DNA of 33,906 nucleotides from an uncultured bacterium. GTDB lineage: Bacteria; Patescibacteriota; Gracilibacteria; Absconditabacterales; Absconditicoccaceae. Each line of letters starts with the position of its first letter. Position 1 is the stretch's first letter. The notes beneath the pieces are model-generated. The model was not told the DNA's origin, made no database searches, and worked only from the letters and a program-made list of their open reading frames with translations. The stretch is taken from assembly GCA_903953935.1 (NCBI GenBank), contig CAJBLF010000006.1, forward strand, positions 1-33,906, given 5' to 3'. This document shows, one piece after another, positions 10,326 to 31,360 of the stretch. Both the position numbers and the translations under genes were made by a program.

Positions 10326-11327
10326 ATGAAAATTCAAAAAGACAACAACAACCTTCTGACTATCTTCAACGAAAACATTCCACAAACCAAAGAATATACG
10401 TATCATGCAAGCGGATATACATTTTCTGATTTTGACAAAGGGATAATCGTTCTTCATAAAAAACAGTGGAAAATAATTAGTTTGAAAAATCTTGGAGATA
10501 ATATGAATGTCGTCTATATGAAAAACAAAACATGAGAAATAATACATGATAAATTAAGTGGAATAAACAAGGCATTAAAATTATTCCAGTGATTTGATGA
10601 AGAAACAGGAAAAAAATATTATTTTATACCAGGAATGGGAGAGACAGAACAACAAGAAAAAAACACTGTACTCAAAAATTTATGAACAAAATTTGCCATA
10701 GAAAAAACAACAAAAGGAATGGTGATATGAGGAGCACAAGAAGATAGTATCGAAACTGATCTTTGGGGATATTTTTTTGGATTAATGCTGATATATGGAA
10801 AACGAGAGGGAAAGAATATGGTCAACCGCCAAAAAAACCAGTGAAATGAAGTTTTTTTGGATGATTGAGTTATACCGACGACTTGAGAAAATTTAAGCAC
10901 AAATTTTTCTGATAAAACAAATGAAATGAAGTGATTAAATATTTCGAAAGCAGTCGTGTATATGGAACTGGCTTCTATCAAAATTCAAATTCCACTTTCT
11001 GGACAACATCTTGCACACGAAGAAAATTTAGATACTATGATTAAACAGTTACAACAAGAGTGAGTATTTGTCAAAGCAGATAAACTAACAAATAAGAATG
11101 GAATGGTCTACCAGATAAGTTGTAATGATTATGAGTTACTAGAAACATTTGCACAACGGTACGAAGCAGTTGAAAAGTTTGAGAAAATAAGTAAACGTGA
11201 GTTCACCGAAGAAATGAAAATCAAACTAATAGAATTTATTGAAACAAATCCTGAAATTCCACAAGACGGAAAGACAGAGGTTTTGAAAGAAATTAAAGAA
11301 TGAACAATCAAGCTATTAACCAAGTAA
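10326..11327 (+). CDS. Hypothetical protein directly abutting ftsW, 333 aa
   Basis: The ATG follows the ftsW TAG with no gap, so translation is probably coupled. UGA-Gly codons occur throughout and the frame ends in TAA at 11325-11327. It is soluble, with no signal peptide. I do not recognise the family. DLWGYFFGLMLIYGKREG near residue 147 looks superficially like a LAGLIDADG helix, and a second segment (LDTMIKQLQQEGVFVKADKL) could be the matching alpha-beta unit, so a degenerate homing-endonuclease-type fold is one option. The C-terminal 60 residues are helical and charged. The position argues for a cell-division link or simple operon hitch-hiking; I cannot choose. Confidence 0.72.
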
Positions 11328-11368: not shown

Positions 11369-11440
11369 GGGGCGTTGGTGTAGTGGTTAACATAGCGGTC
11401 TTCGGAACCGTTGTCAGGGGTTCGATCCCCTTACGCCCTG
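11369..11440 (+). tRNA. tRNA-Arg (anticodon UCG)
   Basis: A full cloverleaf can be drawn by hand: acceptor GGGGCGT with ACGCCCT (G1-U72), D arm GTGT/ACAT, anticodon stem GCGGT/ACCGT with loop CTTCGGA (11400-11406), so anticodon UCG reading CGA and other CGN codons, 4-nt variable loop, T arm with TTCGATC loop, discriminator G. CCA is not encoded. It lies 41 nt after the preceding gene. I found no tRNA for UGA in the window. Confidence 0.93.
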
Positions 11441-11474
11441 AATGTAAAAAAAACTAAAATATTATACATATATA

Positions 11475-11536
11475 CATAGCGGTCTTTCGCCCCGATGGGT
11501 CGGGGGATCCCCTTACGCCCTGAATGTAAAAAACAA
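11475..11536 (+). repeat. Partial, decayed tandem copy of the tRNA-Arg 3' half
   Basis: The sequence catagcggtct (11475-11485) repeats 11391-11401, and gatccccttacgccctgaat and onward (from 11506) repeats the tRNA 3' end and its flank from 11424, with an offset of 82-84 bp. The middle has been replaced by ccccga-tggg-tcgggg, a new hairpin, so anticodon and T arm are lost. It is either a slipped tandem duplication or a 3'-end tRNA repeat such as integrases leave. Confidence 0.8.
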
Positions 11537-11555
11537 CAGAATAAACACAGAAATA

Positions 11556-11687: not shown

Positions 11688-12761
11688 TTATTCGACCTCT
11701 GCAGGCACAGGTTGGTTGAACACAACGATCTGAAAGCCGGCACGAAGAGCCAGTCCTTCGAAACCTTCTTTCTTCTCAGGATTGATATCCATCTGAATAA
11801 GCGGCCAGGTGATATCCTGATACGGTTTCACGGATGATGCAATTACGTGTAATTCCTTTTTGAGTTCTTCCACACGGATACAGTCGGGATGCGACGGATC
11901 TTTGGGTTCAAAACTGAACTGCGGGTTTTCATCGGACATATCGATTGAAATCATAGCACCCAAAATACCAAGCGGGGTAAAATCGAAATTGGGACGGGAC
12001 CTCTTAACGAAGTTTTCTCCCTCCAAAAGCCGGTTGTGTTCTTCTTCCTTGGCATTCATGCCTTTGGTAAGGATACTGATCTGAGTGATGATAGCTTTTT
12101 CCAGCGGTTTCATCAAACGAATCAGGGAGTCGCCATCAATAAGCGAGGGTGCTTCATGATCAACGAATTGGCCACTTTCCAGGATCTCAGCAATCGGCTG
12201 AAGGAAGGTACCGGTGATGGATACTGCAACCAGTTCCTCGAGCGTCATGTCCTCCCATCCCTGGAACGTTTCAAACGTATCAGGATAGGATTCGGGCTTT
12301 TCGCGAGTGGAGATCTGGAAGTTTTCAATCAATGAAATACGGGAAAGGGTTTCGCCATGATCCGGAGTAGCATCCTTAATCAAGGAGAACATTAAATCCC
12401 TGATAAAGTCCTGGTGCGCGGCCAAGGGATGTGATTCCTTGACTTTAAGCAGGGCCGGAGCATGTGGACAGTCATCAAGTTCTCCGTCAATCTTACCAAT
12501 ACAACTCAGTCCAAAACCGGGACAGGCAATCGGAAGACTCATGATGGTTTCATTCTTCGCTGCAACAAGTGCTCTTTTGTTTACCTCCAGAAACGTGTAC
12601 ATTCCACGAACCAAAGGTGACATAACACCAATTACAGGTTGACCCAACTGTTTGGGATCACCGGGATCAGTGAATTTTTTGCTTTCAACGATCTTGATGA
12701 TCTCTGCAAGCACCGGAACCTCGTTCCATGCCTGGATAAAATTTGCAACTTTTGTTTTCAT
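11688..12761 (-). CDS. UGA-free hypothetical protein, 357 aa, probably acquired
   Basis: One clean frame from ATG at 12761 to the stop at 11688. I do not recognise the family. The protein is cytoplasmic by appearance, acidic, with no signal peptide or transmembrane helix. It contains several Cys and His residues in CPGFGLSCIGKIDGELDDCP (residues about 79-98), which could bind metal. All of about 20 glycines use GGN codons. Base composition is clearly more GC-rich than the neighbours, with frequent CTG, ACC and GGC. It runs against the surrounding genes, has its own promoter and terminator, and sits next to the tRNA-Arg partial repeat. I infer horizontal acquisition from a standard-code bacterium. 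Function is unknown. Confidence 0.85.
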   Translation of the reverse strand: MKTKVANFIQAWNEVPVLAEIIKIVESKKFTDPGDPKQLGQPVIGVMSPLVRGMYTFLEVNKRALVAAKNETIMSLPIACPGFGLSCIGKIDGELDDCPHAPALLKVKESHPLAAHQDFIRDLMFSLIKDATPDHGETLSRISLIENFQISTREKPESYPDTFETFQGWEDMTLEELVAVSITGTFLQPIAEILESGQFVDHEAPSLIDGDSLIRLMKPLEKAIITQISILTKGMNAKEEEHNRLLEGENFVKRSRPNFDFTPLGILGAMISIDMSDENPQFSFEPKDPSHPDCIRVEELKKELHVIASSVKPYQDITWPLIQMDINPEKKEGFEGLALRAGFQIVVFNQPVPAEVE

Positions 12762-16566: not shown

Positions 16567-17097
16567 ATGAGCATGAGAAATCTTCTTTCGATCATCGTTA
16601 TGTTTTGCTTAACAGTAACAATAAGCATGACAACAAGCTGTTCATCAAACACCATCACCGATCAACAGACGTCAAATACCGACAAAACGATGACTATTCC
16701 AACAGATTCTGGGACTAAAAATCCGGTTATATGCCAACCAAAAATACCGGTAGGCAGCGAGAATTTCACCAAATTAGTGGATTTCATCGAAAAAAACGGA
16801 TTTGTGACAGAAAACAAAGGAATCCCATCCGACCATCAGTACACCTTCATTGACAGCCAGAAAAACAGGCACGCATTGATAACCATCAAACGTGACGATA
16901 ATGGACAACCGTCAGTTAATGGAAAGGTGAAACAGATAAGCGTCTGGGCATACGAAAAAGGAATAAAGTCCCAAGAGAAATTCTTCGGCTATGGAATAAC
17001 CCAAGACAGTGTATTTAGCTTCTTAGAAGGCGAAGAACACTTCCTGGAAATAAAGCTGGGGTATGAAGAATTCACAAAAAAGGCAACTTCCAAATAA
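16567..17097 (+). CDS. Putative lipoprotein, 176 aa, UGA-free
   Basis: N-terminus MSMRNLLSIIVMFCLTVTIS followed by MTTSCSSN: a hydrophobic signal ending in a Cys at residue 25, with Ser-rich residues after it, is a lipoprotein-type signal (the -3 residue is Thr, not the ideal Leu). A Thr/Ser-rich linker to residue 60 leads to a compact 110-aa domain (FTKLVDFIEKNGFVTENKGI and on). The family is not recognised. All 11 glycines use GGN. ATG at 16573 is an alternative start. It has its own TTGACA element and strong terminator. Probable acquisition from a standard-code bacterium; the protein should be membrane-anchored outside the cell. Confidence 0.75.
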   Translation: MSMRNLLSIIVMFCLTVTISMTTSCSSNTITDQQTSNTDKTMTIPTDSGTKNPVICQPKIPVGSENFTKLVDFIEKNGFVTENKGIPSDHQYTFIDSQKNRHALITIKRDDNGQPSVNGKVKQISVWAYEKGIKSQEKFFGYGITQDSVFSFLEGEEHFLEIKLGYEEFTKKATSK

Positions 17098-17474: not shown

Positions 17475-20400
17475 ATGGTTAAGGAAAAAAATAATACAAC
17501 ACACAACAAAGAGCTATGATCAGCGCTCACCAAGATTATCCTTGAAAACAAGGATTGATTTTTTGATTTCTTTGATATACTAGAAAATCCTATTGTATGA
17601 AATGAAGAAAGTAAAAATTCAAGTATATGAAAATCAAAAACAGAAAAAATAATATATACTACCTCTATGGCTCTAATAGATCAGAACATCCTCTCTTTAC
17701 AAGAAATCGAAGAGATAATAAAGCATAATCCGTCTCTCGCTCGACATTGACAGAATAATAAATTTCTAAAATTAGGCGCAATGGTATGTAAAAAAACATG
17801 AATAGATATAAAAAAAATATTTTCTGTATGTACAGATATTTCTGTTAATATACCCACAATCAAAGACAAGAACAAACAAAACATACCAGACGACAAACGG
17901 GATGTTGTTTTTAATGAAAGATCGTTAAAAACATTAAAAAAAGTGATGTGAAACGAAAACTTCAAAGAAGCGATGGGTTGAGATTGAGGATTTGAAATAA
18001 TACAAGAAATGAACATATCATGAAACATTTACCAAAGGATGAGGATATTGTTTTTTTTGTTCGACTATCATTTAGAGAAAAAAAACATCCACATAAGTCC
18101 ATTAAACATATTACAGGAAATTTTTGATAAATGTTGAGAACATTGGACCATGGAAAACATATATATCATAGCAAATTTTCTCAGTTATATAACAGACAAA
18201 TCTTTAGAAAGAAATAAGATACCAAATCTAGAATCATTAGATATTTTGTGTTCTCCAGAAAACATAATCTATTTCGCAGAAAACAATCATCACGAAATAA
18301 TGAACTTTATAGAACTCATAAAGATGTTTAGCACAAAATGAATCATAAGCATAGACATCAATGACTATAAGGTTTGGTACGAATGAGTATTGAAAAACAT
18401 AGAAGTAAAAGAAGAGATTGCAGACCTACTGGAAAAATCATCAAAAGACCAATTGAGAGCATGGGAATCAGTAATATTACATGTAGCTACAACAAAAGTT
18501 AAACATATGATTGAAGCAACATCATTACCTATAGAAATACCAAACGACATACAACAATACAATGACGATTATTTCTTTGAGAACAGAAATTCATTATTGA
18601 AAGATTTATATATATTTTCAAAGGAAGAAATCATACATTGAGATATGCAGGACCATAAATTATTACAATTTTTACAAGGATCATTGCCGAGATGATTATC
18701 ACAGATATCCTTCTTTATAGACGTACTCCTAAAACTCATTCATCAAAAAAAAGAAGGAAATTCAGAACGTATTCAAGACATCAACAATAATCTTGGAAAG
18801 TTCTGGCTTCACATGTACAATCGACCATTCGAATTACAAAAAAATTTTTATAGCATATCCATGTTTCTTTTACAACACGACATACATGCATACCAATCAT
18901 TTGTAGAAGATTTATCGGGTCTAAGTAAACAAAATCGCAAACATTTTGTCGAAAAAATTGTTCCATTGATAGAGCCACAAATAATGATACTAAAAGAACT
19001 TAAAATAGAAAATATCGATACAACAACAAATGAAGATGGTTCACCCAAACCCAAAAGCATAGAGATAATAAGTATCTCGAGTTTCATAGAATCGTTCTTT
19101 GAGAAAATAGGAAATTGAACAACAATAGGGGAACTTGAACAACAAATGAACAACGACGATAATATAAAGATATATAAAAAAGCATTTATGGAAAAACGAT
19201 TAGGCATAAAATCACCAGAAGTATATCTGGAGGAATATACTGAAATTACAGAGTATGTATTTAAATATGCATGCAACCTCTCCCAAAAAAACGAAAAAAA
19301 CCTAATAAGTATATGAACAATCTTAGCAACAGTAAAAAACGATTCCCGAAATGAATTCAGGATAGACAAATCAATTCCAAAAGAAGAATTTACCGATGAA
19401 GGAAATGAAGCAATAAAAGAAATAACAACAGATCAAGAAAGGGACTATCGAAAATCACTAATAAACAAGGAGACACGAATCACTTTACAAGAAGATGCAT
19501 ATCATACAACCACGATACTTCCACAGACGATTTGAGAAAAGATATTTAATATACAGCAGAGTTTGGAAGAATTATATGATCCCGATATCTATGAAGATCC
19601 TGATGTAAAATCATTTGCAGAGAAATTTTTTCAGAAAAAAAACAAACAAATGACTTTGAAAAATATAGAAGATAACGAAGAACAAAGTAACTTTATGAAG
19701 AAAAACATTCCCATACTACAGTTCACTGACAAGATAGAAAGCCTGAATCTAAATGAGCTATTCAAAAAATTAAAATATAATGAAGAACAATGAACACCTA
19801 TTTCCAAAGAATTAGAAGAAGATTGAAAAAAAACAATACAGGATGCAATTATAATTTTCAAAGATATCGTGAGTACGTATAAAAAGAGTTGAATAGCAGA
19901 TACTGCACAGATAAGAATAGAAGAAGTTGCAAACAATTTTTCTTTAGAAGTGGATGAGCTGTCTCGTTTAGTAAGTCCGACAAATGAATTCCAAAATCCG
20001 ATAAAAATAAAATCACGAATTACCAATGATATAGTAGAAATAATAAAAAACATCAGAGGATGTTTATGATGCATGCAAAAAAACAGCAATAACCACACAA
20101 ACCTTGATTTTATGTCACCAAATAGATTTATTATATTTAGTGGTAAAGAAGATGAATTCTGATCAAACATAGCAGATCAAATATGTATACTTTCAGAGAC
20201 TGATCAGTGACTCTGTTTTATTATGGACGGACTTTATGGTGCCCGTATGTCCAATATATTACTCAATCACTGCCTTACCGTCATAGAGAAGATACAATCA
20301 GTAAAGGAACAACAAATAAAAATATTCATTCCAAAAACAAGCATCAAATCAGCAGGGACCAATACCACTCATTTCCAATCATTGTTAAACAAGGAAATTA

Positions 20401-21498: not shown

Positions 21499-22749
21499 AT
21501 GGACAATAGGTATAAAAAAACACCAAGTGAGACAATAAACAGCAGGATAGAAGAGATAAAAAAAGCAATCAAGATAAAAAAAGCTTTTATTGCTCTCGAA
21601 GGTTGGTGGAGTATGATAAGCAGTTATGCCTTACTCTGCATAATAGCGTATTATTTTGCTCCATGGAAAGAGATTATAATCGATCTGCGATTATTCTTTT
21701 CAGGCAATGCACAGGATATACTACCAGGAAATTTCAAATTTTTGGAAGTAGTTCCCATCATCGCCGCCATCATTGTAATGGAATTATTGTTGTCAATACT
21801 TGCAGGAATTTTTGGATCAATATGTGTAGGAAATGGAGGTAGAAACGCCCTCAAATCCATGAAGCCCAACAACATATTGAAAACATTATTCATTGTGGTT
21901 GTGGCAGAAGAATTGTTTGCAAGATGGTTTTTCCTAGGATTTATGGCCAGCGATCCTAATCTGGGAAATTATTTCTATGTACTCTTAATCGCAGGAAATG
22001 GAATCTGGGCTTGGGTCCACTTATACAACTATGAAGATCCTAATAAGCGGCAGTTGATACGAGTATTGCCTCAGTTTATAGCGGGATTATTCTTCTCATA
22101 CGTATATGTGAAATTCGGGCTTATGGCAACTATTCTCACACACTTCGGAAGTAACGCTATTTTGTTCGCGTCAGACAAAAATCAGATATGGGACAAAAAA
22201 GAATTACGAAGATTGTTAACATTGGTGGTGTTTGGTGGAGCTATTTTGATACTTATATGGTTACAAGTAGATATAATAGGACTATTCAAACAATTTGTAC
22301 AATTTGACGAAAAAACAATCAGAAATTGGACTACAAACGATTTTTTCGCACTGTACATATCAATGTATTTTGTCATCAATACCGTATTTACGTTTATGAT
22401 GTACGATAAAAACTCTTCAAGAGAAAAAAAGGAAGAGACGGTATTCATAAAAAAAATGGTAAAAATAATGGTGGCAGCAGTAATTATCATTGGTCTTGTG
22501 GTAATATTAAATTGGGGACTTTCCTTTTTTACAAACTCTTTAATCTGGAAATCATTTATATCCACGATTATAGTAGTGCTATTGATAAAACACAAGTCTC
22601 CCAATGCGGCAATGCGTACCTTCTGGACAACAATTCCATTGAGCATGGTATCCTTTACGGCACTCATTATCCTCCCATTCAGTAGTTGTTTAGTCTTCTT
22701 AATTGTCTGTGGCCTTATAGTGGAAACGATAAACGAGATAGCAAAATAA
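21499..22749 (+). CDS. CPBP-family intramembrane metalloprotease, 416 aa
   Basis: CPBP (Abi/Rce1-like) proteases cut or process substrates inside the membrane. The three motifs are present: EExxxR in VVAEELFARWFFLGF (about residues 135-149), a WAWVH segment matching the second motif's H, and HxxxN in LTHFGSNAILF (about 214-224). About ten hydrophobic helices are visible. The protein is longer than the core domain, with a C-terminal membrane extension of about 180 residues. It uses GGN for all of its 21 glycines, in sharp contrast to ftsW, which has a similar membrane composition; this suggests a later arrival or strong codon constraint. It has its own promoter and terminator. The substrate is unknown. 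Confidence 0.85.
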   Translation: MDNRYKKTPSETINSRIEEIKKAIKIKKAFIALEGWWSMISSYALLCIIAYYFAPWKEIIIDLRLFFSGNAQDILPGNFKFLEVVPIIAAIIVMELLLSILAGIFGSICVGNGGRNALKSMKPNNILKTLFIVVVAEELFARWFFLGFMASDPNLGNYFYVLLIAGNGIWAWVHLYNYEDPNKRQLIRVLPQFIAGLFFSYVYVKFGLMATILTHFGSNAILFASDKNQIWDKKELRRLLTLVVFGGAILILIWLQVDIIGLFKQFVQFDEKTIRNWTTNDFFALYISMYFVINTVFTFMMYDKNSSREKKEETVFIKKMVKIMVAAVIIIGLVVILNWGLSFFTNSLIWKSFISTIIVVLLIKHKSPNAAMRTFWTTIPLSMVSFTALIILPFSSCLVFLIVCGLIVETINEIAK

Positions 22750-27847: not shown

Positions 27848-28507
27848 TTAAATTCATATATTTTTTTGTGTGCTTCGAATTTTTTTTCACGCTACACTAC
27901 AACACAATACCACCAAAGAAATAGACACACTAAGCAAAAACATTCTCGTTGCTATAGCCTCAAAAAAACCTTCAGGAAACAATGAAATCAACATACTTGA
28001 TGAATCAAAAGACCAATTGCCCTGAGGAAAAAACACACTATGAAAAAGATTAAATGTAGCGGTAAAATCTATAGATAAGGCTAAAATAAGCAAAAAAGAT
28101 AGCAACAAGGAAGCTGATGATCCTCGAAACAATCATCTAGTGATAAGATATATTTTTTTCTGAAAAACAAATATCAACAGTACCAACAAAAATATCACAC
28201 TAGCTATAATTCCGACAAAATAGGTAACAGCAAAAATCTGTTTAACGTCTTCCATATGGCTTTTTTCAGCCATGGGAAAGTTCTTATCCAGAGAAGATCT
28301 TCATTGAATAAACATATATACATTTTGTACGTACCCCAAAGATGATTCCGACACAACAACTCATTGCTGGATCATATACTTAGTATAAAAACTTGGAACA
28401 GAAGAATAATAAACCAAAGGAAGTAACAATAAAAGGAAAAAAAGTGATCCACTAAAAAGTGGAAAAAAAATAGTATCTATTAAACGTCTGTAAGAAAAAG
28501 CAATCAT
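27848..28507 (-). CDS. DUF1461-family integral membrane protein, 219 aa
   Basis: About five membrane helices. The segment TFNLFHSVFFPQGNWSFDSS followed by LISLFPEGFFEAI is the signature of DUF1461 (TIGR01906), with its FH-x-x-FF-x-x-G-x-W-x-F and L-F-P-E-x-F-F elements. UGA-Gly codons occur at IQQGVVV, FIQGRSS, ITRGLF, SVAGKKI and in the last two residues (GI before TAA). The function of the family is not known; the conserved polar segment lies outside the membrane. It is convergent with the 27421 gene; their ends are 40 bp apart. Confidence 0.85.
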
Positions 28508-28557: not shown

Positions 28558-28587
28558 TTTTCAATTGAAAAATTATCATAGATAGCT
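28558..28587 (+). repeat. 30-bp direct repeat, left copy
   Basis: It begins with the palindrome ttttcaattgaaaa and ends attatcatagatagct. Identical to 30259-30288; the flanks on both sides differ. Confidence 0.9.
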
Positions 28588-28650
28588 CTATTAAAAAAAC
28601 AAAAAATAAACATGTTAATGTCCAGTAAACAATTATGAAAATTTTAAAAA

Positions 28651-28681
28651 CAAAAAAAAAGACACAGGAGTTTCCTGCGTC
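28651..28681 (-). terminator. Terminator of the 28707-29996 operon
   Basis: gacacagga (28661-28669) pairs with tcctgcgtc (28673-28681) with one mismatch; on the minus strand a run of T follows. It lies inside the repeat-bounded segment. Confidence 0.85.
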
Positions 28682-28706
28682 TTCTATAGAATATATAGTT
28701 ACTGTT

Positions 28707-29372
28707 TTAGAGAACAAAAACAGCAACCAAGAAGAACAAAATAAATCCGCAAATGTGCAGAAATTTTGAAGCGTTTATGCTATCATCAAATGGTCCATCA
28801 CTGGAAGAAAGCCAGGAGTCAGTTTCAAAAAGGGTTTCAACATCAGCAACCTTATGCTTAGTCAATACAGTGCTGAATACACCTTTCTTTTTCTTAGAGA
28901 CAAACTCTTTTGTCCAGAAATTTCTTTTATAGCTCCATATAAAGAACCATAAGAAGAAGACAACAAAGAGAATATCAGCAACAAATTTGAAGATTGTGGG
29001 TCCTGCTATTTTCCATGCAAACCCAGCTAAGGCTATTTTGCCGACTTTGGTATTGGGGATGTCATTCGACTGACGAATGATAACATTAGAGAGAGTATCA
29101 ATCATCAAACCGAATTGTTCGGGAGACAGAGAGAAATCCTCCAATAAGTCATTCATAGCGGTTCGTGACCAATCCTTTTCCAACGTTCTAATTTTGTCCA
29201 TAATAGAAACGTTGGTATGAATAGTGATTTCGTCAATAATCTTTCCTCCATTTTGGAGATCAGAAAATTGTTTGGAGTTAAGATCCTGTTTTTGGATATA
29301 AATAATCCTGTCTTGTCCAAAGACAAAAAGGGTTATACATACCAGACATAATGATACAAAAAGCTTTTTCAT
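28707..29372 (-). CDS. Secreted/membrane protein with C-terminal anchor, 221 aa, UGA-free
   Basis: Signal peptide MKKLFVSLCLVCITLFVFGQ, an extracytoplasmic part of about 110 residues (DRIIYIQKQDLNSKQFSDLQ and on), a membrane segment FKFVADILFVVFFLWFFIW, a 60-residue basic/acidic loop starting SYKRNFWTKEFVSKKKKG, and a final membrane segment CGFILFFLVAVFVL at the very C-terminus. It shares this layout with the 29409 product, so the two are probably paralogues that pair. All of about ten glycines are GGN. The signal peptide ending in G-Q is Bacteroidota-like. It starts 36 nt after the 29409 gene on the same strand. The family and function are not recognised. Confidence 0.8.
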   Translation of the reverse strand: MKKLFVSLCLVCITLFVFGQDRIIYIQKQDLNSKQFSDLQNGGKIIDEITIHTNVSIMDKIRTLEKDWSRTAMNDLLEDFSLSPEQFGLMIDTLSNVIIRQSNDIPNTKVGKIALAGFAWKIAGPTIFKFVADILFVVFFLWFFIWSYKRNFWTKEFVSKKKKGVFSTVLTKHKVADVETLFETDSWLSSSDGPFDDSINASKFLHICGFILFFLVAVFVL

Positions 29373-29408
29373 AGAATAATTTTTTTTAATGTTTGGGTTA
29401 ATTACTAC

Positions 29409-29996
29409 TTACAACACACACGCTCCTATAAAAAACAGGACAAAATACACAATGAGCAACCAGAATTGCATGCTAACATTGGCATGTTTAATTTCATAAC
29501 GAACGGTGTCAGCGGTAGATTTGACTTCAATTTCTCCCTCCGCAGTTTCTTCTTCAATAGGCACTACTTTATGAATACCATTTTTGCGCCATAACCAAAG
29601 AAATAGGATGGTAATTACAATGAGATAAAGGAATGTAAGGAGATATTGAAGAATTTCTCCACCGGTATAATGGTAGAACACTCCCCAAACAACCCAAAAC
29701 CCAACAGGGGTATTGTAGAATTTATTAGAATTTCCACTTATCGAAGACAAACTACTATCAAGTAGCTTTCCAAGATAAGAAACAACTCTAACAAAAATAC
29801 TACTGTTCTCTTGCTTTGGAGTGGCATAATAAACCATTCCTTTTTGCTTAAAGTAATCTAACGTTACAGAATCAAGCGACGATTCTTTGATGGCAATCCA
29901 TTCTGTTGCGGCTGTTGAATCACTAACCGATGCTTTAGCATAGGGACTCACAACACTCAAAAGAACGAACACGAACATAAAAATTTTTGTTTTCAT
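29409..29996 (-). CDS. Secreted/membrane protein, paralogue of 28707, 195 aa, UGA-free
   Basis: Signal peptide MKTKIFMFVFVLLSVVSPYA with likely cleavage at AKA/SV, about 90 extracytoplasmic residues, membrane segment LQYLLTFLYLIVITILFLWL, an acidic loop (VPIEEETAEGEIEVKSTADT), and a C-terminal membrane segment FWLLIVYFVLFFIGACVL. This is the same order and spacing as the 28707 product. It is first in the minus-strand operon, 66 nt after the TATAGT box. There is no UGA among ten glycines. The two proteins could form a hetero-oligomer with both tails embedded in the membrane. Function is unknown. Confidence 0.8.
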   Translation of the reverse strand: MKTKIFMFVFVLLSVVSPYAKASVSDSTAATEWIAIKESSLDSVTLDYFKQKGMVYYATPKQENSSIFVRVVSYLGKLLDSSLSSISGNSNKFYNTPVGFWVVWGVFYHYTGGEILQYLLTFLYLIVITILFLWLWRKNGIHKVVPIEEETAEGEIEVKSTADTVRYEIKHANVSMQFWLLIVYFVLFFIGACVL

Positions 29997-30061
29997 AAAA
30001 AATTTGTTTTGTTTAGTTGATTAATAATTACTGTTAATTAAGACTTCAGTATGTTAAAGAT

Positions 30062-30089
30062 ACTATAAATAAATATAAGATAAAGTCAA
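30062..30089 (-). promoter_or_regulatory. Promoter of the 29996-28707 operon
   Basis: On the minus strand TTGACT (30089-30084), 16-nt spacer, TATAGT (30067-30062). It lies inside the repeat-bounded segment. Confidence 0.65.
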
Positions 30090-30258
30090 GTAATTTGTAG
30101 AACGAAAAACAACTATTTATTTTATATATTGGCCAATTGAGATAGTCATATATCCAACAAAAAAACAATACAATAAATAAGCATATCAAATTTTTTAAAA
30201 TTCTACATACACCGCAAGGTTTTTGTATAAAATAAATATAGCTACCACTAATTATATG

Positions 30259-30288
30259 TTTTCAATTGAAAAATTATCATAGATAGCT
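30259..30288 (+). repeat. 30-bp direct repeat, right copy
   Basis: Identical to 28558-28587. It sits in the dnaX upstream region, 61 bp before the dnaX start. The rest of the 29997-30349 gap holds the promoter above and A/T-rich sequence. Confidence 0.9.
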
Positions 30289-30311
30289 ACACTGCTACAT
30301 ACCAACAAATA

Positions 30312-30349: not shown

Positions 30350-31360
30350 ATGTCCCTAGCAAATAAATATCGTCCGCAAACCTTTGATACCATCATCGGA
30401 CAAGATCATATCACAGAAATACTCAAAGCACAAATGAGCACGCACAAGCAGATTCATCACAATTACCTATTGTTTGGACCAAGAGGAACAGGAAAAACGA
30501 CTGCAGCCAGGATATTGGCAAAAGCTATCAATTGTCTGGATCCACATGAGGGAAATCCATGCAACAAATGTTTCAACTGTACAACTATCAACGAAGGAAA
30601 GACGCTTGATTATGTGGAAATAGACGCTGCATCACATACTGGAGTAGATAATATTAGAGAAGAAATCTTAGATAAAGCAGCATATCCACCAGCAAACCTA
30701 AAGAAAAAAATCTATGTGATAGATGAAGTCCACATGCTAAGTAAATGAGCATTTAATGCACTCTTGAAAACCATCGAAGAACCTAGAGACAATGTATGTT
30801 TTATCCTAGCTACGACGGATATACAGAAAGTACCAGAAACTATTATCTCCCGTTGTCAGGTATTTAATTTCAAAAAGATAGACAAGAAAGAGATAGGAAA
30901 ACGACTCAAAATGATTTGTGAAAAGGAAGAACTTACTGCCACAGATGGAGCGATAGAATTGATTGCTAAGATATCGGAATGATGTGCTCGTGATGCGGTA
31001 AAATATATGGATCAGGTGAGTGTTTTAGGCAATATAGATGAGGAACATATTACGAAGTTTCTTGGTGTTGCATCAGAAGTCTTAATAAAAGATTTTCTCA
31101 CACTCATACAGACAGGGGACGCAAAAGCTCTATTCGAGAAAATAGATGACATCCACAATCAGGGCATAGATCTACATAATTTTGCAAAACAAACACTTAT
31201 GTATATCGACCAGATTTTCTTAGAAGATATAGAATTTTTTACCAAAATATCTGAAACATTTACAGACATCATCGGAAACATCAGATATTATCCATACCCT
31301 ACGATTATCTACAAGGTCGCGATACACAAACACTTGAAATGAGATACAATAAAAAATTAA
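30350..31360 (+). CDS. dnaX: DNA polymerase III gamma/tau subunit, short form, 336 aa
   Basis: The clamp-loader ATPase subunit. ANKYRPQTFDTIIGQDHI at the start, Walker A GPRGTGKT (43-50), a Cys4 zinc knuckle (C62, C71, C74, C77), Walker B with IYVIDEVHML, NALLKTIEEP and the SRC motif in ISRCQVFNF are all present. UGA encodes Gly in LSKGAFNALL, ISEGCARDAV and LKGDTIKN. The protein ends at about the end of domain III, so it lacks the tau-specific C-terminus. A separate 99-aa gene 158 bp downstream looks like that missing C-terminal domain, with a terminator-like hairpin and a long palindrome between them. Confidence 0.95.

Follow-up and report, generated by a model that had tools for sequence, protein, structure and literature searches.

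The locus and its features

We analyzed a window of 33,906 nucleotides, which is contig C6 of a 1.30-Mb genome assembled into 65 contigs (G000; estimated completeness 96%, estimated contamination 4%) from an uncultured member of the Absconditicoccaceae. The host genome reads UGA as glycine: UGA represents 28% of the glycine codons (163/578) in the window genes other than P0001 and P0002, the 2 genes considered here, and DnaX carries UGA at the expected glycine of its SKGAFNALLKTIEEP motif. The locus lies between a DUF1461 gene and dnaX and is composed of the following features:

27848..28507, minus strand: DUF1461 gene, left neighbour, encoding a TIGR01906/DUF1461-like membrane protein (2e-19, just under the curated cut-off)
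28558..28587, plus strand: direct repeat copy 1, left end of the insertion; putative piece of the dnaX promoter that holds the -35 and the spacer and breaks off within the -10 box
28588..30258, no strand: putative inserted segment of 1671 bp, which G008 and further congeners lack at the corresponding position
28657..28685, minus strand: predicted intrinsic terminator of P0001/P0002 (13 pairs, U-tract)
28707..29372, minus strand: P0001, ORFan of 221 aa; no UGA among 10 glycine codons, 6 Trp
29409..29996, minus strand: P0002, ORFan of 195 aa; no UGA among 10 glycine codons, 6 Trp
30062..30089, minus strand: predicted promoter of P0001/P0002, TTGACT-16-TATAGT (10/12)
30259..30288, plus strand: direct repeat copy 2, predicted native dnaX promoter segment
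30266..30293, plus strand: predicted dnaX promoter, with -35 TTGAAA (30266-30271), a 16-bp spacer and -10 TACACT (30288-30293)
30350..31360, plus strand: dnaX, right neighbour

The sequence-only reading of this DNA had described identical 30-bp repeats enclosing a self-contained gene unit. Indeed, the two 30-mers are exact, in direct orientation and 1701 bp apart, and each contains the 14-bp palindrome TTTTCAATTGAAAA. The repeat is exactly 30 bp long, since at either end the next base is not the same in the two copies (T/G and C/A), and about 3e-8 exact pairs of at least 30 bp would be expected by chance in the window. The 30-mer occurs only twice in its own genome, both times at the dnaX locus, and was absent from 58 relatives even with up to 3 mismatches allowed, as well as from IMG/VR; it is not a dispersed repeat. 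Between the copies we found the promoter, the 2 UGA-free genes and the terminator that had been announced, and no recombinase, the only genes being those of 2 membrane proteins. The count of "exactly one" promoter did not stand in the same way: the promoter scan listed further weak promoter-like sites in the insert, so that this count is a reading and not a measurement.

The repeat is part of the predicted dnaX promoter

Copy 2 overlaps the dnaX promoter, a point missing from the sequence-only reading, and the duplicated 30-mer reaches just one base into the -10 box. Each of five congeners (G001, G002, G003, G006, and G008) has a single ATTGAAA...TAACTACACT element ahead of dnaX, and their dnaX-promoter segments are identical to the 30-mer at 19-23 of 30 positions. 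Copy 2 is followed by ACACT, matching G003, G006, and G008, while copy 1 is followed by CTATT. Judged from these alignments, copy 2 is the predicted native promoter of dnaX; the putative promoters named here, including that of P0001/P0002, would be active as such. Copy 1 lies upstream of the DUF1461 gene at a distance of 50 bp, close to the position that the single promoter takes in G008. A candidate degenerate third promoter copy (30213-30248) was rejected: it reached p 0.0045 in the last 60 bp of the insert, but 82 of 300 shuffles matched it when the whole insert was considered.

An empty site in a congener and the polarity of the event

The occupied locus was compared with the orthologous places in the congeners. 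In G008 the order is DUF1461, about 50 bp, a single promoter, and dnaX without the cassette, which is the empty site with one copy that the sequence-only reading had proposed to look for. In G003 the same promoter stands directly after a DEAD-box gene, and the cassette is likewise missing; it is absent between DEAD-box/DUF1461 and dnaX in G008, G003, and others. The opposite case, in which all relatives would carry the genes with decayed flanks, was not encountered, as the relatives lack the genes.

The left flank resembles that of relatives at best in 4/10 positions for copy 1 versus 2/10 for copy 2. As it barely separates the copies, the polarity is judged from where the copies lie, from the -10 box and from the absence of the genes. 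The single promoter of the congeners, the empty site of G008 and the cut of copy 1 inside the -10 box together point to the arrival of a 1671-bp insert that doubled 30 bp of its target. We infer that the direction was insertion and not loss everywhere else; the simplest history would be that 1671 bp was inserted and 30 bp of the target was duplicated. The idea that a self-contained gene unit had been inserted is supported, as is that of an empty site.

Two ORFan membrane proteins without UGA codons

P0001 is predicted to contain a signal peptide, an exported part of about 100 aa, a membrane helix, a cytoplasmic stretch and a C-terminal membrane helix, and the same architecture can be read in P0002. 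Among the ORFs of two genomes, the two proteins are each other's sole relatives (E 0.0025 and 0.012) and therefore are probably ancient paralogues, P0002 being a probable distant paralogue of P0001. Neither has another copy in its own genome. No convincing relative was found for P0001 in 353 genomes of the class or for P0002 in 380 genomes of the phylum, these searches giving one chance-like short match. Likewise, neither protein gave a convincing match in Pfam, NCBIfam, PHROGs, PADLOC, or PDB sequences, matches in genome contigs, IMG/VR, and phages were at chance level only, and P0002 had no convincing match among plasmids. Both proteins share a weak hit to PHROG 19575 (E 0.025 and 1.1). Single-sequence structure predictions reached a mean pLDDT of 52-55, too poor for a structure search. 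Our guess is that the pair may be the two subunits of a small envelope protein that stems from a phage or an episome.

We also looked at codon usage. Glycine is encoded by UGA in 0/20 cases in P0001 and P0002 versus 163/578 for the genes in the rest of the window (p = 0.0013, computed from the window mean), while Trp codons amount to 12/416, a density several times that of most neighbours. This absence of UGA suggests a donor using the standard code, and a foreign donor of P0001/P0002 appears likely on these grounds. Further UGA-free genes of the window lie at 11688-12761, 16567-17097, and 21499-22749. The first of them has 46% GC, compared with 33% GC for the window, and is without Pfam match; a diverged-looking relative of its protein adjoins dnaX in G022 (L045, 3789-4799).

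UGA-free genes also more often carry a strict TTGAC(A/T)-TATA(A/T/G)T promoter. Such a promoter precedes 5/42 UGA-free genes versus 12/374 other genes in this genome (p 0.02), a count in which overlapping stretches led to one gene being counted twice, and 5/32 versus 12/393 in G008 (p 0.006).

Other inserts flanked by direct repeats

Direct repeats beside genes were sought in 1.06 Mb of this genome, a figure that counts overlaps, and in 1.00 Mb of G008. Besides the dnaX locus, this genome yielded four UGA-free genes with such flanks:

L127, 7003/7494: exact 39-bp terminator-like repeat; UGA-free lipoprotein gene
L068 (contig C15), 3695/4415: 41-bp repeat with 3 mismatches; UGA-free gene
L134 (contig C21): imperfect repeat of about 80 bp after tRNA-Trp; UGA-free kinase-like gene
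L085: repeat of about 280 bp of the def end; UGA-free gene

The L127 repeat resembles a terminator and its surroundings are variable in this genome and in G008 alike, so that L127 is a candidate insertion. That of L068 consists of the last 13 codons and the stop of the neighbouring gene, of which an older, degenerate copy is present further to the left; the event has a single-copy empty site in contig C2 of G008, and a strict promoter similar to that predicted for P0001/P0002 lies upstream of the UGA-free gene. In contig C3 of G008, an exact 49-bp pair (59439/60567), located 52 bp upstream of a resident gene, encloses two UGA-using genes, and the orthologous position in our genome holds a single degenerate copy. 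Clean empty sites were obtained for the dnaX and L068 events only, and an approximate one for the 49-bp pair. Within this genome the flanking repeats have different sequences at all loci, and the duplications measure 30, 39, 41, about 80, and about 280 bp. A class of mobile cassettes sharing one repeat was therefore rejected, each locus having its own.

When the flanks had to be intergenic at either side, such repeats accompany 6/95 UGA-free gene runs versus 7/1567 others (OR 15, p 3.7e-5), in a post hoc test that used a crude ORF caller, included the window locus and had a coverage of about 82% here and 85% in G008. Two arrays of G008, in contigs C8 and C6, were counted in this test and set aside as insertion examples, being probably tandem duplicates of small genes and not insertions.

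Three separate observations were made at these loci. In L068 (3525-3760 and 4412-4460), three graded copies of a gene 3' end (native, with 3 mismatches, and more decayed) stand between successive inserts, as if one gene end had been targeted more than once. In L134 (7847-10320), two inserts follow tRNA-Trp with imperfect 70-80-bp repeats between; the UGA-free kinase-like gene is in the first, and the second carries a UGA-using gene. The membrane protein encoded by the UGA-free gene at L068 3844-4359 is 44% identical to a relative (E 5e-38) in LR756511.1 (261000-261494), a 595-kb uncultured phage.

How the unit may have entered

We consider it probable that the locus arose by an insertion with long target duplication of the dnaX promoter that was not site-specific. 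A 1671-bp piece of foreign DNA, holding a two-gene membrane-protein operon with its own promoter and terminator and derived from a donor in which UGA does not stand for glycine, would have entered the promoter in a single event in the species' recent past. This event would have duplicated 30 bp of the promoter, so that the right copy would still drive dnaX and the left copy would remain as a dead fragment beside the DUF1461 gene. A DNA fragment may have been captured illegitimately, perhaps as widely staggered nicks underwent repair or restart, or as a polymerase switched templates; the duplication length would then vary between events. We infer a mechanism without site specificity and favour capture during repair or by template switching. 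DprA (PF02481) was found in the host genome, while neither ComEC (PF03772) nor Ku (PF02735) was detected in it, which takes away the easiest route of uptake and the easiest of end joining and counts against this reading.

Integrases rebuild tRNA genes on integration. The main rival is a site-specific integration into the dnaX promoter, where a tyrosine recombinase acting in trans, perhaps of a phage or plasmid, would have placed a circular cassette by way of a 30-bp att core overlapping the promoter, and rebuilt the promoter in like manner. The exact 30-bp core, the regenerated target and the cargo with its own expression signals would agree with such an event, as would the other inserts of this genome, which restore gene ends or follow tRNA-Trp, and the signs of accretion given by degenerate third copies in L068 and L134. 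Moreover, the genome encodes an Xer-like protein (327 aa) and a short second PF00589 protein (196 aa). However, these two tyrosine recombinases, the only ones found, would have to serve all the different repeats, and a distinct sequence and length at each flanked insert argues against one integrase, or one transposase, behind them. In the 30-mer we saw no inverted core arms around a 6-8-bp overlap, no further copy of it exists in 59 genomes or IMG/VR, and the segment 28588-30258 has no integrase gene. The proposal of the sequence-only reading that the 30-mer is an att or core site for an enzyme encoded elsewhere is not supported, as the 30-mer belongs to a conserved dnaX promoter and is present at no other site; one shared enzyme is disfavoured by the unrelated repeats of different length at the four other inserts. 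On balance, we regard site-specific integration as rather unlikely.

Clean ends and identical repeats could also be left by an element of transposon type, served by a transposase in trans and making a target duplication of unusual length, but the insert has no visible terminal inverted repeats at 28588/30258 and no transposase, its genes have no second copy in the genome, and the duplication length varies between events; this is the least probable of the explanations weighed here. Hardly more probable is an ancestral cassette lost elsewhere through its repeats, or a product of chance or assembly. Deletion across 30-bp direct repeats is ordinary, and the assembly consists of 65 contigs with 4% estimated contamination, but the cargo genes are missing from each relative searched and are UGA-free among neighbours using UGA, the chance expectation is 3e-8, and an assembly chimera would require a second molecule with the identical 30-mer.

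Returning to insertion with long target duplication, we consider the locus a genuine gene-gain scar, a fresh case of a known, unexplained kind. A broader version, which we hold to be unlikely, is that the lineage takes up short gene units through an active, undescribed insertion process from a common standard-code pool (phage or episome), duplicating target promoters, terminators or gene ends and building arrays at favoured places. The L068 gene with a relative in phage LR756511.1 would be one gene of this sort.

Relation to known systems

According to PMC1643837 and PMC3031569, insertion with long target duplication is known mainly from restriction-modification genes of Helicobacter pylori (Nobusato et al. 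2000, Gene 259:99; Furuta et al. 2010, NAR 38:2428). As at dnaX, one genome has a gene unit between long direct repeats and a relative lacks it, the repeat being single there; lengths vary between events and the mechanism is unsettled. The differences are the cargo, here two ORFan membrane-protein genes instead of restriction-modification genes, and the UGA=Gly lineage, where the absence of UGA marks the insert as foreign.

Integrase islands in tRNA genes or gene ends likewise have direct repeats, one copy of which keeps the target functional, whereas our insert has no integrase, spans only 1.7 kb, has a promoter as target and belongs to a set whose repeats differ per locus. Integron gene cassettes are also small self-contained units beside resident genes; here, in contrast, the repeat is the target's own promoter and the unit has its own. 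No attC-like structure was noticed at the locus, and the recombinases found are the Xer-like and the 196-aa protein. Xer-dependent elements (IMEX, pdif modules) share repeats of about 28-30 bp and an enzyme in trans, but the repeat at our locus is a genus-conserved dnaX promoter, and no XerC/XerD-arm symmetry was seen in it.

The entry of genes without mobility enzymes into bacterial chromosomes is poorly understood. As UGA-free genes mark recent arrivals in UGA=Gly lineages, insertion scars can be counted genome-wide, and the share of genes flanked by direct repeats is here far higher among foreign-looking than among resident ones. Should more genomes show the same, the idea of long target duplication becomes testable by strain comparison in Patescibacteria.

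Additional observations

Several other elements were noted during the survey. In the window, 38-bp repeats (11424-11461 and 11506-11543, 89% identical) lie at and just downstream of a tRNA gene end (11369-11440). Two dispersed families of intergenic repeats of about 100 bp (L068 3573-3681 and L127 5671-5764) are common to this genome and G008. Stretch L089 (contig C34) has genes without UGA-glycine, many of them small, as well as a promoter-like repeat of 23-33 nt that is present five times, and is probably a phage contig binned by mistake. Stretches L057 (C3) and L091 (C36), of 2.9 and 3.2 kb, end in 141- and 135-bp terminal direct repeats, so that these contigs would be circular or tandem; they have no obvious replication gene, and carry UGA-using genes, one of which encodes a Fic-domain-like protein. 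Finally, L073 (C20) contains two near-identical 120-nt intergenic elements (11170-11290 and 19170-19290) with complementary ends, GTCGCCATTA...TAATGGCGAC, and without Rfam match; a related stretch occurs in contig C6 of G008, and the elements may possibly represent an unknown structured RNA or a repeat family.
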